Notes under the pieces: model-generated
Told to the model about the DNA's origin: nothing
What the model saw: the letters and a program-made list of their open reading frames with translations, nothing else
Database searches by the model: none
Shown here: in pieces, positions 16,084 to 45,506 of the stretch
How positions within the stretch are numbered: the first letter of the stretch is position 1
How the letters are laid out: the number at the start of each line of letters is the position of its first letter
Made by a program: the position numbers and the translations under genes
Assembly: GCA_022821845.1 (NCBI GenBank)
Contig: JAJECT010000042.1
Span: 62,001 to 126,000, forward strand
Length of the DNA stretch: 64,000 bases
Reading direction: 5' to 3'
DNA from: Rhodothermales bacterium
GTDB taxonomy: Bacteria; Bacteroidota; Rhodothermia; Rhodothermales; VXPQ01

Positions 16084-18015
16084 TCAGACGCTGCCGCCCT
16101 GTTTCTGTTCTTCTACTACCACGACTTCTGCGGGCAAGCGCCCTTCGCCGTACATCGCTTCGATTTCTTCCTCGAACCGTGCTGTCACCTGTCGGCGGCG
16201 CACCTTGAGCGTAGGCGTAAGCAACCCGTTTTCCGTCGTGAGCGAAGCGATCGCTATGTGAAATCGCTTAACGCTTGACCAGGGGTCCATGCCCGCATTG
16301 GCCTCCCGCGCCGCGGCGCGCAAATACGATTGCACGGCGGGCAAGGCGACGAGGGCGGCGGCGGGCAAGTCCTCCCCGGCGCCCTGCCCCCGGGCATAGT
16401 CCCGCAGATTCGCCAGGTCGGGGAACACGAGCGCCGCGCAGTACCGGTAGCCGCTGCCCAATACCATGGCTTCTTCGATCGCCGGATGCGCCCGAAGCCG
16501 ATTCTCAATGGGCTGGGGCGCCACGTATTTCCCCGTAGAAAGTTTGAAAAGCGACTTCTTCCGGTCCGTGATGCGCAAGTAGCCCGGCGGCGAAAACATC
16601 CCGATATCGCCGGTATGAAACCACCCGTCTTCGTCGATGACCTCCTTCGTCAAGGCCTCGTCCTTGTAGTATCCCCGCATCACGTACGGCCCCCGCGTCA
16701 AAATTTCTCCGTCCCCGGCAATCTTCGCCTCCGCTCCCGGAATCAATTCCCCTACCGTACCCGGCTGAACGCGCCCTTTTCGGTTAAAGGAGATCACGGG
16801 GCTCGTTTCCGTAAGGCCGTATCCTTCCAGCACCGCAATATTCGCCGCCGCAAACAAATTGGTCAGACGCGCGCCCAGCGCCGCGCCGCCCGAAATAAGG
16901 AAATGCACGCGCCCGCCCAGCGCCTTGCGCCATTTCGAGAAGAGCAGACGGTCCGCCGCCTTGAGCGCAAGCGCCTGAAGTCCGGCGGGCGGCGACAATA
17001 CGTTGTATCGCTCGCCCGTGGACAGCGCCCAGGAAGCGATGGCCTTCTGCGGGCCGCGCATCCCGGCGATCCGCGTCAGCACGGCGGCGTACACTTTTTC
17101 CAGCACCCGCGGCACGGTGGCGAAAATGGTGGGCCGCACCTCGGCAATGTGCTGCATAAGGAACTCCTGCGACGTGAAATACACGGAGGATCCATGGTAA
17201 ATAAAGCCGTACTGAAGCATTCTCGCGAAAATATGGGTGAGCGGCAAAAACGAAATAATCTGCTCGCCCCCGGCGCCCGGACGATACGCCGGCATCCCGG
17301 AAAAAGACGTGAGCGCATTCGCGCTGATATTTTCATGCGTCAGCACGACGCCCTTGGGCTGTCCCGTCGTGCCGCTCGTATACAGAATGGTGGCCGCGTC
17401 CTGCGGCCCCACGCGTTCGCGCAACGCAGGCATGGCGCTGGCGTCCGCCTCCATCCGGCGGCGACCGACATCCCGAACCGCCTCCAGCGAGCAGGCCGCC
17501 ATGCTTTCCGGAAGCGAACGCTCGTCGGGAAGGTCCCCGTTCGCCACGATCACCGCCGCAACCGACGGGCATTCGGGCAAGACGTCCTGGATGGCTTGCA
17601 GATGCTCTTTGCTTGAAACCGCCACCGCCCTCGCCTCCGAATGCGCAAGCGCGTACCGAATCTGGTCTGGCGCATGCGCCAGATACAGGGGCACGTCAAT
17701 GACGCCGGCAAGCAAGCAACCCATGTCCACGACGCAAAACGACACATCGCTTTCCATATACAGCGCAAGGCGGTCTCCATGGGCCAGTCCGAGTTCCGCG
17801 AGCCCTAGCGCCACTTCTTCGGCCTGGCGACGAAACGCATCGAGGGAAAGAGACCGCCAGCCGCCCTCGCCGTCCGGCTCGTTGAACGCGCGGGGGTTTT
17901 CGTACCGCTCCGACGCTTCGTACAGCAAGTCGGGGAGGGTCTTCCCCAGCGTAAGCGCACCGCTGCCCGGCGGCGCGGCAAGCGTGTTTTCCAATTCCGA
18001 TACGGTATCCGGCAT
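16084..18015 (-). CDS. fadD: Long-chain acyl-CoA synthetase (AMP-forming)
   Basis: This 643-residue ligase activates fatty acids to acyl-CoA. The AMP-binding P-loop is ILYTSGTTGQPKGV (about residues 212-225); FLISGGAALG, LEGYGLTETSPVISFN and DGWFHTGDIG follow in the normal order, with ITDRKKSLFKLSTGKYVAPQPIEN as the hinge and C-terminal domain. It belongs to the eukaryote-like long-chain ligase (FadD15) group rather than the E. coli FadD type. It heads the beta-oxidation operon and has a GAGGAACAGGT sequence just before the ATG. A terminator from the preceding minus-strand gene lies in the 185-base gap upstream. Confidence 0.92.
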   Translation of the reverse strand: MPDTVSELENTLAAPPGSGALTLGKTLPDLLYEASERYENPRAFNEPDGEGGWRSLSLDAFRRQAEEVALGLAELGLAHGDRLALYMESDVSFCVVDMGCLLAGVIDVPLYLAHAPDQIRYALAHSEARAVAVSSKEHLQAIQDVLPECPSVAAVIVANGDLPDERSLPESMAACSLEAVRDVGRRRMEADASAMPALRERVGPQDAATILYTSGTTGQPKGVVLTHENISANALTSFSGMPAYRPGAGGEQIISFLPLTHIFARMLQYGFIYHGSSVYFTSQEFLMQHIAEVRPTIFATVPRVLEKVYAAVLTRIAGMRGPQKAIASWALSTGERYNVLSPPAGLQALALKAADRLLFSKWRKALGGRVHFLISGGAALGARLTNLFAAANIAVLEGYGLTETSPVISFNRKGRVQPGTVGELIPGAEAKIAGDGEILTRGPYVMRGYYKDEALTKEVIDEDGWFHTGDIGMFSPPGYLRITDRKKSLFKLSTGKYVAPQPIENRLRAHPAIEEAMVLGSGYRYCAALVFPDLANLRDYARGQGAGEDLPAAALVALPAVQSYLRAAAREANAGMDPWSSVKRFHIAIASLTTENGLLTPTLKVRRRQVTARFEEEIEAMYGEGRLPAEVVVVEEQKQGGSV

Positions 18016-18135
18016 ACCTGTTCCTCATGCTGAACGAAAAAGGGCGACGCGGGGCATACTTCGTCTTCCGAAAGAAAAGAAAAATCGCAACGAGATAAAA
18101 GCCCCTGCCCGATACGTCGAACATAAAAAATGCGT

Positions 18136-40820: not shown

Positions 40821-42834
40821 CCAGTAATTCCTGCGCCCGGGCAAGCACATTTTCGGCGGTGAAACCAAATTGCCGCATGGCTACGGCCCCCGGCGCAGAC
40901 GCTCCGAACCCGGCCATGCCGATCACGGCGCCTTCGAGACCCACGTACCGCTCCCAGCCTGTCGCCGCGCCGGCTTCCACGGCAAGGCGCTTGCGAACGG
41001 CCCGGGGCAGCACGGATTCCCGATACGCCGCAGGCTGCTCTTCGAAGAGTTCCCACGACGGCATGCTCACCGCCTGCGCCGCGACGCCCGCCTCGCAAAG
41101 CCTGTCCGCCGCCGCCGCCGCATGTTGCGCCTCGCTCCCCGTGCCAATCAGCACAATGTCGGGCGTTCCCTCGCAAGCGCGCACGACATACGCGCCGCGC
41201 CGAAGTCCGGCGCCCGTCCCTTCAAGCACGGGTACGCCTTGCCGGGTTAGCACAAGGGCAATGGGACCGTCTCGCCGCTCGATAGCCAGTTTCCAGGCCT
41301 CGGCCGTTTCGGCGGCGTCCGCGGGACGAATCACCGTAAGGCCCGGTATGGCCCGCAGCGACATGATATGCTCTATGGGCTGATGGGTGGGTCCGTCCTC
41401 GCCAAGGCCGATGGAGTCGTGCGTAAAGAGGTAAAGGACGGGCGTCTTCATAAGCGCGCTGAGCCGCACGGCGGGGCGCATGTAGTCGCTAAACACCAGA
41501 AACGTGGCGCAATAGGGCCGCACCCCGCCATGCAACGCCATCCCGTTGCAGGCCGCCGCCATGGCGTGCTCGCGGACCCCGAAACGCACATACCCGCCCG
41601 CAGGGGACGTTTTCTGAAAATCCGCGCGCCCCTCGACCAACGTATTGTTCGAGGGCGTGAGGTCCGCAGACCCTCCCACCAGAAACGGCGCGGAAGGAGC
41701 CAGCGCGTTCAGGGCCTTGCCGCTGGCTGCGCGCGTGGCTTGCGCGACGCCCGGTTCGGGCATTTCCATGCGCGCCGCCCAGCCTTCCGCAAGCGTTCCG
41801 CTGCGCCAGGCGTCGAATGCCTTGGCCTCCTCCGGATAACGCGCCCCGTAGGCGGCAAGCCGCGCTTCCCAGTCGGCGACGGCGGCGCGCCCGGCGGGCA
41901 AAAACGCGTCGCGCAGGTCCGCATAGACTTCGTCCGGCACAAAAAAGGGCTTGTCTTCGGGCCACCCAAGATTTTGTTTGGCCAGCGCAACCTCCTCTTC
42001 TCCAAGGGGCGAGCCATGGGACGAGGCGGACCCCGCCTTGTTGGGACTGCCGTACCCGATGACGGTGCGCACGGCGATGAGCGACGGGCGATCCTGCTCG
42101 GCGCGGGCGCCATGCAGCGCCTGGTCAATGGCTTGCAGGTCGTTCCCGTCGGCGACCTGGTCTACGTGCCAGCCATAGGCGTCGAAGCGTTGCAGTACGT
42201 TTTCCGTAAACGCCAGGTCCGTTCCGCCGTCGATGGAAATGCCGTTGTCGTCGTACAGAAAGACGAGTTTGCCCAGGCCAAGGTGCCCGGCCAGCGACGC
42301 CGCCTCGTGCGAGACGCCCTCCATAAGGTCCCCGTCCGAACAAATGCCATACGTAAAATGGTCCACGATTTCGAAGCCGGGCCGGTTGAAACGCGCCGCA
42401 AGATGCTTTTCGGCCATGGCCATGCCCACGGCGTTGGCGAACCCCTGGCCCAGCGGCCCGGTCGTCGTTTCGACGCCCGCCGCAAGAAAATTTTCCGGAT
42501 GTCCGGGCGTTATGCTGCCCCACTGCCGAAACTGCTTGAGTTCCTCCATCGGCATGGAGTAGCCCGCAAGGTGCAGCAAACCGTACAGAAGCATGGAGCC
42601 ATGCCCGGCGGAAAGCACGAACCTGTCCCTGTCGAACCAGTCCGGGTGGGCGGGGCTGTGCTTCAAGTGCCCCTTCCAGAGCGCATAGGCCATGGGGGCC
42701 GCCCCCATCGGCATGCCGGGGTGCCCGCTGCGGGCCGCCTGGACCGCATCGACGGCGAGAAAACGCAAGGCGTTGACAGAAAGACGGGCGCGGCTGGACT
42801 CCGCAGAGCCGGGCGACGAAAACGAAGCGCTCAC
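40813..42834 (-). CDS. tkt: Transketolase
   Basis: This 673-residue thiamine-diphosphate enzyme of the pentose phosphate pathway shows the expected blocks: [36 protein letters not shown], the ThDP motif GDGDLMEG-type ([20 protein letters not shown] to YDDNGIS), and [19 protein letters not shown]. The GTG at 42834 is preferred because it overlaps the upstream stop as GTGA; an ATG at 42870 would overlap by 40 bases. It is paired with a VKOR-DsbA fusion gene, an unusual partner. Confidence 0.94.
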
Positions 42835-44114
42835 TGGGCGGCAGCCTCCTCGATCAGTTGTTGCAGGCATTCGACGGTATGGGATTCCGTAGCGACGAAA
42901 CGCCCGTTGATGAGGACGGTGGGGGTCTGGTTCACGCCAATCTCTATCGCCTCGCCCCGTTGTTGCTCCAGGGTACGACGGTACAGTTGGCTGTCGAGGC
43001 GCTGCATCAGCACGTCCGGGTTCATCCCGATATCTTCGGCGATGTCGCGCAACTGCTCCCGGGAAAGGCCGGTTTGCGGATTCTGCATTTCGAACTGCGC
43101 GTCGAGCATGTCAAAGAATTTCTTGTCCCGGCTCGCCGCGTACAGCGCTTCGGACTGCTCGATGGAATGCTCCCACAGCACAAACGGCTTGAACACGAAA
43201 AACGCGCGGTCCGCATGCGAATGCATCACCGGCGTCATGATGTCGTGAAACGTCTTGCAGTGGTAGCAATTGGGATCGAAATATTCAATGACCGTAACCG
43301 GCGCGTCCGCGTCCCCTACCGTTGGATCGAAGAGGTTGACGAGGCGGCGGAAATCCTCCACCGGCTCTTTCTCGGGATCGTACGGGCAGGCGGAAAGCGC
43401 CGCGGCGGGCGCCGCTTCCTGTGCGGGCGGCGAAGGCAACGCTTCCGCAGCCGGCGCGTCCGGCTGCGTTTCGGCGGCGAACACGTCGGCGAGTTCCGGT
43501 TCGTACTGGCTGAAATACAGGGCGTCCGCCGCTATAATCGTTCCGACAAGCAGCAGAAGTCCACCCATCCAGGCTATTTCGCGCAAAGGTTTGGGAATCA
43601 TGGTATCGGGAGGTTCGGTGTCGATGGCAAGAGCGGGAGCGAATCGCGCGTCCAGGCCATGCAAGATAGCAAGCAGCGCGACAATCCCCGCGGATATAAG
43701 GCAAAGAATGCATAATTGCTCCAGCACGGCTACCTGATAATAAACAAGATAGCCCGAGTATGCCAACCCGAAGGCGACCAGCGCCGTTCGGGCGGCCTTG
43801 TACGCCGCGCGCTTGCCCATGAAATTCCAGGCGACGGCCAGCGTCAGAAGGGCTATGGCCGCATAGAAAAGGATGCCCCACGCGGCATTGGACACGCCCA
43901 GAAAGACGCCGGCGGCGCTGCCCGTTACGGCGGCGCAGTCGAACAGGGCGCCCGCCACCGCCGAACCCGAAAACCCCGTGCACCCCTGCCCGAATCCGCT
44001 GTGCTTCTGGATCGCAATGTGCGCCGCGTCCACAAGGCCCACGAGGGCGAGCGCATAGATTGCGCGGTCGATGGAAGCGCGCCGGAAATCGAACCGATGC
44101 AAAAAACGGAGCAT
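42831..44114 (-). CDS. VKOR-DsbA fusion (disulfide-bond formation)
   Basis: This 427-residue membrane protein fuses a vitamin K epoxide reductase (VKOR) domain to a periplasmic thioredoxin. The VKOR part (about residues 15-155) has the outer-loop cysteines C45 and C60 and the quinone-side pair C135-I-L-C138. A further membrane segment (about 183-200) and an Ala/Pro linker lead to a DsbA/DsbG-like domain with C283-Y-H-C286 and a cis-proline in [14 protein letters not shown] passes electrons from the thioredoxin to quinone, so one chain should both make disulfides and be reoxidised. Such fusions are known in Bacteroidota and cyanobacteria. Confidence 0.92.
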
Positions 44115-44241
44115 GAAACCCGCGGCGAAAAGGACAAGCCGAATTTAAGGATACGCTGATTATGCGAAAACCCCGACGCCCCGGCTTATGATCCCGCGAA
44201 AACGCCGGGACCATCCGTATCCTCCGCATTTCGTACATTGA

Positions 44242-44500
44242 AAGGATACTCTGATCAAAACCACTGCGCTCAGCGCGTCACGTTCGTCCGTAAAAGCCGT
44301 CATGCTTGAATCATTGAAATCAGCAAAAAACACCGTAGATTCTGTATGCCGTGGACGTGACGCGCCCTTCGGGAGGCTGCGAGGGGTACGCTGGCTGTGT
44401 CATTCCTCATTACATGGGGCCTGCCATGCTGCTTCGTCATTCCTTGCCAGCGCACCCCTCGCAAACCTCTGAGCTTTGTGGATTTAATCAGAGTATCCTT
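44242..44500. repeat. MITE-like nested inverted-repeat element
   Basis: A perfect 14-bp inverted repeat, AAGGATACTCTGAT, is at 44242-44255 and, reversed, at 44487-44500; with mismatches it extends to 21 bases. Inside, a second inverted repeat pairs 44379-44395 with 44446-44462 (16 of 17), and a CATGG...CCATG pair lies within that. A third copy of the terminal motif (13 of 14) is at 44147-44160 in direct orientation. No gene fits in the 438-base gap 44115-44552, which otherwise shows nothing. This looks like a non-autonomous mobile element or a large structured RNA/DNA site. Confidence 0.7.
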
Positions 44501-44552
44501 AGGGGCCAAACGCACGAAACCAAGCCAGACGGCATAACGAGACCTGCGCGGC

Positions 44553-45506
44553 ATGTCCATCAGGGATTTTTTCCAGAGCGACCAGTTTCAGTCTTTCCTC
44601 GCCGGCGGCGCGGCGCAGGATTTGCTGATTTCCGCCTTGCTCGCGCTGGCCGCGACGATTCTGGCGTACGCGCTTCGCCGCCTCTTCTCGCGCTATATCG
44701 AAGAAACGGACCGGCGCTACCGGGCGTCGAAAATGGTCGGTCGGCTGATTGGCCTGTTCACGGCGCTGGCGATCCTTTTCGTATGGTCTTCGGGCCAGGG
44801 ACCCGGCCCCGCTACCATCCTCACCGTGGTGGGCGCCGGACTCGCCATCGCCCTGCGGGAAGTGCTCCTTTCGTTCGCCGCGTGGGTGCATATGTTGATT
44901 CGGGCGCCCTATAAAACCGGCGACCGGATCGAGACGAACGGGCTGCAAGGCGACGTCATCGATATTCGCCCCCTGCACAGTACGCTGATGGAAACAGGCG
45001 GGCTACTCGAGGGCGGACAAAGCACGGGCCGCATCGTGCATATCCCGAACAACTGGCTGTATCAGCACGGGGTGTACAATTACACCCAGGGGTTCCGGTT
45101 CATCTGGAACGAGATTCTTTTTACCGTTACGTTCCGGTCAAACTGGCAGGCGGCCCGGGACATCCTGCAGCAACTGGCCTCCGAAGCGACCGAACCCGTG
45201 GAAGAACAGGCCCGCGCGGAAATCCGGGAAATGTCCCGCGAGTACCTCGTGTACTACGAAGTGCTGACGCCGTTCGTGTACGTGCGCGTAACGCAAAACG
45301 GGATTCTCCTCTCCCTCCGGCACCTGGCCGAAGTGCGCAAGCGGCGGAACACGGAGCACCTGCTCACGATGCGCGCCCTCGAAGCCTTCCGCGCGCACGG
45401 CGACATCGAACTCGCCTACACGATGATCGGACACGGGCCAGCCGAAAGCGAGCCCATCGGGCCGCCGCCAGACGCGCTTTCCTCGTCTCCCAACCCCTCG
45501 CCTTAA
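44553..45506 (+). CDS. MscS-family mechanosensitive channel
   Basis: This 317-residue protein has two or three N-terminal membrane helices, then a pore-lining helix in the Gly/Ala-rich segment TILTVVGAGLAIALREVLLS, followed by the cytoplasmic beta domain (PYKTGDRIETNGLQGDVIDI; GRIVHIPNNWL). It should open under membrane tension to release solutes in osmotic downshock. It stands alone and ends in a terminator. Confidence 0.9.
   Translation: MSIRDFFQSDQFQSFLAGGAAQDLLISALLALAATILAYALRRLFSRYIEETDRRYRASKMVGRLIGLFTALAILFVWSSGQGPGPATILTVVGAGLAIALREVLLSFAAWVHMLIRAPYKTGDRIETNGLQGDVIDIRPLHSTLMETGGLLEGGQSTGRIVHIPNNWLYQHGVYNYTQGFRFIWNEILFTVTFRSNWQAARDILQQLASEATEPVEEQARAEIREMSREYLVYYEVLTPFVYVRVTQNGILLSLRHLAEVRKRRNTEHLLTMRALEAFRAHGDIELAYTMIGHGPAESEPIGPPPDALSSSPNPSP

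Follow-up and report, generated by a model that had tools for sequence, protein, structure and literature searches.

The window that we analysed, a stretch of 64,000 nucleotides from a Rhodothermales bacterium, contains a short interspersed element located between two divergent genes. One of these genes (42831-44114, minus strand) presumably encodes a DsbA-like protein fused to a membrane domain, and the other (44553-45506, plus strand) encodes what we take to be an MscS-like channel, both being named from their translations. Positions 44244-44498 of the window constitute one copy of the element, which is non-coding, 255 bp long and reads GGATACTCTGAT...ATCAGAGTATCC. The original prediction for this locus described a perfect 14-bp inverted repeat framing 259 bases, and such a repeat is indeed present (44242-44255 on the plus strand and 44487-44500 on the minus strand) within a longer imperfect repeat (32 nt, 84% complementary). 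The bounds of the element are GGATACTCTGAT and its complement, and the 14-bp repeat adds to these two flanking bases that match by chance. A further inner inverted repeat, predicted at 17 bp, is found at 44378-44395 and 44446-44463 (18 nt, 94% complementary), as is the third copy of the motif predicted outside the element, AAGGATACGCTGAT (44147-44160, plus strand, one mismatch). This third copy is a solo end that stands beside the element with no partner end, and it is absent from congener G001, where TTACGACATG stands instead. Altogether the end motif has three matches in the window with up to two mismatches, compared with 0.12 expected, a number reached by none of 100 shuffles.

The element consists of a terminal stem enclosing two arms. 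The left half of the stem (44244-44272, plus strand), including the terminal inverted repeat GGATACTCTGAT at 44244-44255, pairs with the right half (44470-44498, plus strand), which includes the terminal inverted repeat at 44487-44498. Arm H1 (44273-44365) has a paired foot (44273-44281 with 44357-44365) and a variable upper part that pairs poorly across copies. The turn between the arms, CCTTCGG (CCGAAGG on the minus strand), lies at 44366-44372 and is followed by arm H2 (44373-44469), which is composed of a long stem (44373-44395 with 44446-44469) and an apex (44396-44445). Read on the minus strand, the conserved loop letters of the H2 apex are AAGGAATGACGAAGCAG ... AATGAGGAATGACACAG, and they flank a small hairpin of the GTGG/CCAC type. 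The extent of the element is supported by its other copies, by an alignment of 55 copies (A1) and by an empty site in G001. We assign the element to the minus strand since wobble pairs give a moderate hint that this is the strand that is folded; as mobile DNA it has no coding strand. Although a mechanical 86-aa open reading frame (44300-44560, minus strand) crosses the window copy, the 55 aligned full copies contain indels and range from 253 to 258 bp, lengths that break any frame. There is thus no conserved reading frame, and we rejected a coding reading of the element, in line with the predicted lack of coding capacity.

The genome from which the window derives (2,815,196 bases in 45 contigs) contains 95 + 83 matches to the end motif with up to two mismatches, compared with 2 + 0 for the reversed control. 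Using the element as a BLAST query, we identified at least 40 places in this genome at E <= 2e-53 (40 of the 40 scored, from 119 first-look candidates). The core motif AAGGAATGACGAAG, with up to one mismatch, occurs 51 times in this genome, 57, 145, 22, 109 and 37 times in five congeners and 21 times in a gammaproteobacterial metagenome-assembled genome (MAG), copy numbers that in draft genomes are lower bounds because many contigs start or end inside a copy, so that the repeat breaks the assembly. The reversed control of the core motif occurs 0 or 1 times per genome (once in the window's own genome). Contigs of the own genome (G000) that start inside a copy include C2, C10, C20, C30, C31, C36 and C44, and those that end inside one include C5, C10, C15, C37, C43 and C44. 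Among the 60 genomes in and around the genus that were searched, the element is present in the own genome and in all five congeners and absent from the 54 other genomes of the order. The named records that carry the core are Rhodothermales MAGs, among the matches listed. The original prediction held that a unique occurrence in the genome and absence from relatives would argue against a mobile family; the element is neither unique nor absent from relatives.

The 339 nhmmer hits yielded 159 unique copies that are full and 119 that are partial, the remainder being duplicates or cut by the end of the locus; alignment A1 was derived from 62 unique near-full copies, of which 55 have both ends and flanks. 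Genome G003 carries a deletion form (for example C18:8049-8235 and C46:108761-108947) in which about 60 bp of H1 are gone (query 56-116) and H2 is kept. Spread by phages or plasmids was considered and rejected: the window element has no match in 50,697 phage records, the related gammaproteobacterial element of genome G060 and two distant elements have none in 72,556 plasmid records, and two exact-type patterns have none in viral contigs. Pattern matches in Poribacteria and Woesearchaeota proved to be tandem or simple repeats around GTCATTCCT and not the element. Those in Poribacteria (L166, L168 and L223) are tandem repeats around GTCATTCCTTGCGGTTTTTC, and the one in Woesearchaeota (L206) is a similar repeat containing GTCATTCC; the structure of each is unrelated to that of the element.

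The sequences that flank the element in the window (43300-44239 and 44503-45500) match, at 96% and 95% identity respectively, sequences that lie one base apart in G001. This empty site reads ...TTTCGTACATTAGGCCCAAACG, with TTAG at the place of insertion. The window copy is bordered by GAAA on the left (44240-44243) and by TTAG on the right (44499-44502, plus strand), the latter being the same 4 bp as at the empty site. The predicted lack of an obvious target duplication therefore holds for the window copy, in which the duplication is not intact, but not for the family, whose members have inverted ends of 12-14 bp, TTAA/YTAR-like targets and 4-bp direct duplications. Of the 159 full copies, 81 have a left 4-mer that is not a palindrome, and in 23 of these 81 it is identical to the right 4-mer; 5000 permutations of the flanks gave on average 3.2 identical 4-mers and never more than 11. 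Inverted 4-mer matches occur at chance level (3 versus 2.6 expected). For the 78 of 159 copies with a palindromic left 4-mer, the match to the right 4-mer seen in 39 is less informative. The commonest flank is TTAA (51 left and 37 right, n = 159). YTAR is given as the target motif of IS5 in the available part of the source (PMC10359306). Strict YTAR is found in 67 of 159 left flanks and 53 of 159 right flanks, and we therefore describe the target as TTAA/YTAR-like and not as strictly YTAR.

A search for DDE_Tnp_1 transposases recovered one locus in the own genome and a further 11 spread over four of the six other genomes covered. Three transposase loci, all in congener G004, have GGATACTCTGAT ends: L288 carries the sequence at both ends and is internally deleted (666 bp), and L280 and L284 carry it at the right end, L280 with an internal stop. 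The transposase fragments match Pfam DDE_Tnp_1 and DUF772 above cut-off, and the best NCBIfam model is that of the IS5 family transposase (E 5e-39; 134.3 bits against a cut-off of 140, in a fragment). The sole DDE_Tnp_1 match in the own genome (L148, G000:C3:65614-65988, a frame near a contig end) is devoid of the element's ends within two mismatches, indicating that it belongs to a different insertion sequence. We found no intact transposase with the element's ends in the genomes searched, and because the matching loci are decayed and occur in one congener only, the partner is known only from decayed copies. The full-length transposon with the same ends that the original prediction suggested looking for is represented in these genomes by remnants.

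Four properties of miniature inverted-repeat transposable elements (MITEs) of the IS5 group have a counterpart here. The element is short (253-258 bp), non-coding and multi-copy (51 core motifs in the own genome); its inverted ends are shared with those of an insertion sequence, by way of the decayed loci of G004 and none in the own genome; a 4-bp YTAR-type duplication is evident at the level of the family, the flanks of the window copy not being identical; and the site is empty in a relative (G001). We conclude that window positions 44244-44498 are almost certainly a non-autonomous transposable element, a MITE of the IS5 group, which an IS5-group transposase supplied in trans would have cut and pasted or copied. 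The original prediction named this reading and offered a bacterial interspersed mosaic element as an alternative. Such REP-type mosaics are likewise palindromic, extragenic and repeated, but they are composed of palindromic units of 20-40 bp with no target duplication, whereas here a single 255-bp unit (253-258 bp across copies) has terminal repeats, 4-bp duplications, an empty site and IS5-family remnants with the same ends, and is no mosaic of short REP units. We regard this alternative as highly improbable.

Similar solo or truncated ends occur elsewhere in the own genome. We rejected the idea that solo ends form a separate repeat, since most of those examined are truncated or decayed ends of the element and some are chance matches in genes. 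On contig C45 of the own genome (~17990-18090, L320), seven 15-bp units GGATACGCCGATTAA, one of them changed, are arranged head to tail; each unit comprises an element end plus TTAA, and this array of bare ends runs into a decayed element end.

The RNA of the window copy folds at -114.9 kcal/mol on the plus strand (z -8.8) and at -124.9 kcal/mol on the minus strand (z -8.4), with none of 200 shuffles as low in either case, and its DNA folds at -63.1 kcal/mol (z -7.3), also far below shuffles. The predicted capacity to fold into a long hairpin in RNA is therefore real, but the structure is a branched fold with two arms and not one hairpin. The interior, which comprises the terminal stem and two long arms around the CCGAAGG turn, shows numerous compensatory changes. 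The 55-copy consensus has 51 pairs, 12 of them with two-sided changes, and the H2 apex is almost invariant among these copies. A MAFFT alignment of 159 copies gave a poor RNAalifold structure as a result of misalignment, and pairs were instead projected on the window copy, with pair changes and wobbles called in the 154 distinct rows of the 159 copies. By this approach, two-sided Watson-Crick changes were identified in 12 of 24 pairs of the terminal stem, 9 of 14 in the H1 foot and upper part, 9 of 12 in the poorly paired H1 apex, 11 of 21 in H2, neither of the two pairs of the turn and 2 of 12 in the H2 apex as paired on the plus strand. We also built a minus-strand model of H2 from diverse copies (22 selected, of which 20 are in alignment A2 and L273 and L216 were left out). 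In this model 92.7% of cells are paired, compared with 88.2% when shuffled; 9 of 31 pairs have two-sided changes; and covariation is 0.263, compared with 0.176 for shuffled alignments (0/500) and 0.066-0.096 for slid ones. A known Rfam family was rejected, as none matched at threshold: the sole match of Rfam 15 to window 43900-44800 is mir-rL1-14 (19.6 bits, gathering score 60), and two sub-threshold matches at five distant-relative loci both lie outside the element.

Relatives of the element with other ends are present in Gammaproteobacteria. The MAG CAR3_bin_20 (G060) contains a 253-bp form at ~20-25 places (40 scored candidates; 21 core motifs), with the ends GGAAGGTCTGATCAAG and variants and with CTAG or TTAA as flanks. 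The H2 stems of this form differ en bloc between copies yet still pair, and the loop letters are as in the window family. Three copies (L253, L261 and L262) have an extra segment of ~69 bp in one arm, and another (L266, 203 bp) has its arm tip replaced. Directly upstream of copy L259 (G060:C40) there is another apparent miniature element (GGAATCTCTGAACAAG...), an internal segment of which is common to the L253-type insert, so that the arms look modular.

When we searched more widely with the H2 model (R1), matches at E <= 1e-5 were recovered in five of the 395 genomes sampled from the own phylum, each of them a member of the own genus, and in six of the 369 sampled from the class to which G060 belongs (G060, G430, G488, G495, G552 and G689; E 3e-11 to 4e-6). 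The 390 own-phylum genomes with no R1 match provide the best control that the model does not find just any long hairpin. Four to five gammaproteobacterial genomes other than G060 carry the fold, more distantly than G060 does. The stems of these distant matches are wholly different, and CAAGG, GCAG and ACGCAG-like letters recur together with CCGAAGGG. At L347, L342 and L349, and within L344, a whole element of 259-272 bp folds into a terminal stem and two arms with a CC-GAA-GG turn; L354 (171 bp) has one arm only. The weakest match, L345 (G552), has no CCGAAGGG turn, unlike the other distant relatives. In L342, L348 and L351 the model also hits the second arm, there on the opposite strand (E about 3e-4). 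In 12 model-aligned matches, 25 of 31 pairs have two-sided changes and covariation is 0.78, compared with 0.206 shuffled and at most 0.189 slid, values that lean towards structure because the alignment followed the structure and the model had itself retrieved the members.

Wobble pairs bear on which strand is folded, as an A-C mismatch on the plus strand corresponds to a wobble pair on the minus strand. By parsimony on the tree, the terminal stem, H1 foot and H2 together have 240 changes between Watson-Crick and A-C pairs versus 88 between Watson-Crick and G-U pairs (sign-flip test per pair, p 0.004); unpaired columns have 248 G/A and 275 C/T changes. Adding the upper part of H1, which runs in the opposite direction (15 A-C versus 44 G-U), gives 255 versus 132 (flip p 0.036, sign test 0.065), and all 85 pairs of the fold give a flip p of 0.009. 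H1 alone has no asymmetry (A-C 109 versus G-U 118, p 0.79), and sign tests for the combined helix sets range from 0.007 to 0.065. The asymmetry is thus a hint, and not proof, that the minus strand may be the one that folds in the terminal stem and H2. The gene orientations around the copies lend no support to co-transcription of the minus strand: classified by a rough ORF rule, 130 copies comprise 41 plus-plus, 23 minus-minus, 36 divergent and 30 convergent settings. The sole promoter-like site found is weak and lies on the plus strand.

Membership in the IS5 group accounts for the ends, targets, copies and empty site, but not for pairing and loop letters that are kept despite different ends. 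We favour the view that the interior is selected as a folded nucleic acid. Compensatory changes have preserved the pairing, and the H2 loop letters are kept as letters. Our overall explanation, in which we have good confidence, is that the element is an IS5-group MITE whose interior fold is under selection as folded nucleic acid; the fold is probably maintained by selection. That nucleic acid would more likely be RNA than DNA. In the reading that we prefer, RNA transcribed across or from the element would carry the fold, which would either protect the host transcript or help the element persist. We tentatively suggest that the fold may act as minus-strand RNA. Each of the window family, G060, G689, G495, G430 and G488 carries the folded interior with different terminal repeats. 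It is conceivable, if somewhat doubtful, that the interior is in itself a mobile cassette of non-coding RNA (a branched structure of stem, two arms, CCGAAGG turn and CAAGG/GCAG/ACGCAG loops) which has passed between phyla and come to be framed by different transposon ends. Were this so, the two facing copies of the motif arm in the distant forms would mean that a transcript of either strand begins with a working arm, and the second arm would have decayed in the window family.

Several other readings of the fold deserve consideration. Template switching corrects long inverted repeats in bacterial DNA, and in a plain MITE the arms might be leftovers of an inverted duplication in which mutation, through correction of quasi-palindromes, and not selection, produced the appearance of compensation. 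Stem arms that are replaceable en bloc, and a wobble asymmetry that is moderate only and absent from H1, fit this reading. Template correction would not, however, keep unpaired loop letters, whereas the H2 apex is near-invariant in 55 copies and recurs in a gammaproteobacterium, and unpaired CAAGG, GCAG, ACGCAG and CCGAAGG remain where every stem differs; we find such a purely mutational origin unlikely. Integron attC sites work as folded bottom strands, and the fold might similarly act at the level of DNA, single-stranded or as a cruciform, for instance by serving as a substrate of strand-specific recombination or excision. The DNA fold (z -7.3), the ability of both strands to fold well and the variant copies with swapped or inserted arm segments agree with this, and the use of one DNA strand would also give a strand-specific excess of wobbles. 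Against it, the element has the ends, targets and duplications of a DDE transposon, for which a folded interior is unnecessary, and no recombinase is tied to it here. We consider a DNA role improbable.

Alternatively, the fold might be needed only in one or other transcript strand, where it would serve as an RNase III site, a terminator or a stabiliser, shielding against read-through and making insertions tolerable. Most copies adjoin gene ends (at median distances of 56 and 16 bp from the chosen ORFs), and the available portion of one source describes other bacterial MITEs with stable folds and RNase III cleavage (PMC10969869). This reading leaves unexplained the conserved loop letters and their recurrence in other lineages, and the excess of A-C over G-U changes, which varies with the helices counted, points to one strand and not both. 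We consider it less than likely, although not far-fetched, and continue to prefer an IS5-group MITE with a selected fold.

The bcr1 repeat of the Bacillus cereus group is reportedly, from the title of a paper, mobile and restricted to that group, and differs in this from the window family. As far as the accessible text describes it, bcr1 is an interspersed repeat of 147-167 bp with tabulated fold scores (PMC2267715), and by description it resembles the window family in being mobile, interspersed and conserved in its fold. QMITE2 of Coxiella, Correia/NEMIS, ERIC, BOX and SPRITE are, in the excerpts available, short, non-autonomous and predicted to have transcripts that fold, as in the window family, and some structured bacterial MITEs are cleaved by RNase III (PMC10969869, PMC3049150). 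In those descriptions none of them appears as one fold that occurs across phyla with exchanged ends. R0, R2, R6 and R200 of Pseudomonas fluorescens are, according to the available part of their description, likewise high-copy intergenic repeats with inverted repeats, and R0 and R2 share ends with insertion sequences (PMC2718517). By that partial description the window family is set apart from them in sizes and end structure, and it may be related to R6 or R200. The family itself is not described in the portions of the open-licence literature that were available. IS5-family remnants with the same ends in the genus and 4-bp TTAA/YTAR-like targets align the window family with IS5-group MITEs, whereas its interior differs from theirs in being a conserved branched fold with covariation that recurs with other ends in other bacteria.

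Bacterial MITEs are usually viewed as internally deleted leftovers of insertion sequences. Here it is the ends that look exchangeable and the fold that is conserved, with stems rewritten and pairing and loop letters kept both within one genus of Rhodothermales and in several Gammaproteobacteria. Should the fold have a function, these elements would be a route by which a structured RNA (or folded DNA) passes between bacteria, and the family would offer a natural set of compensatory mutants for finding what that function is.
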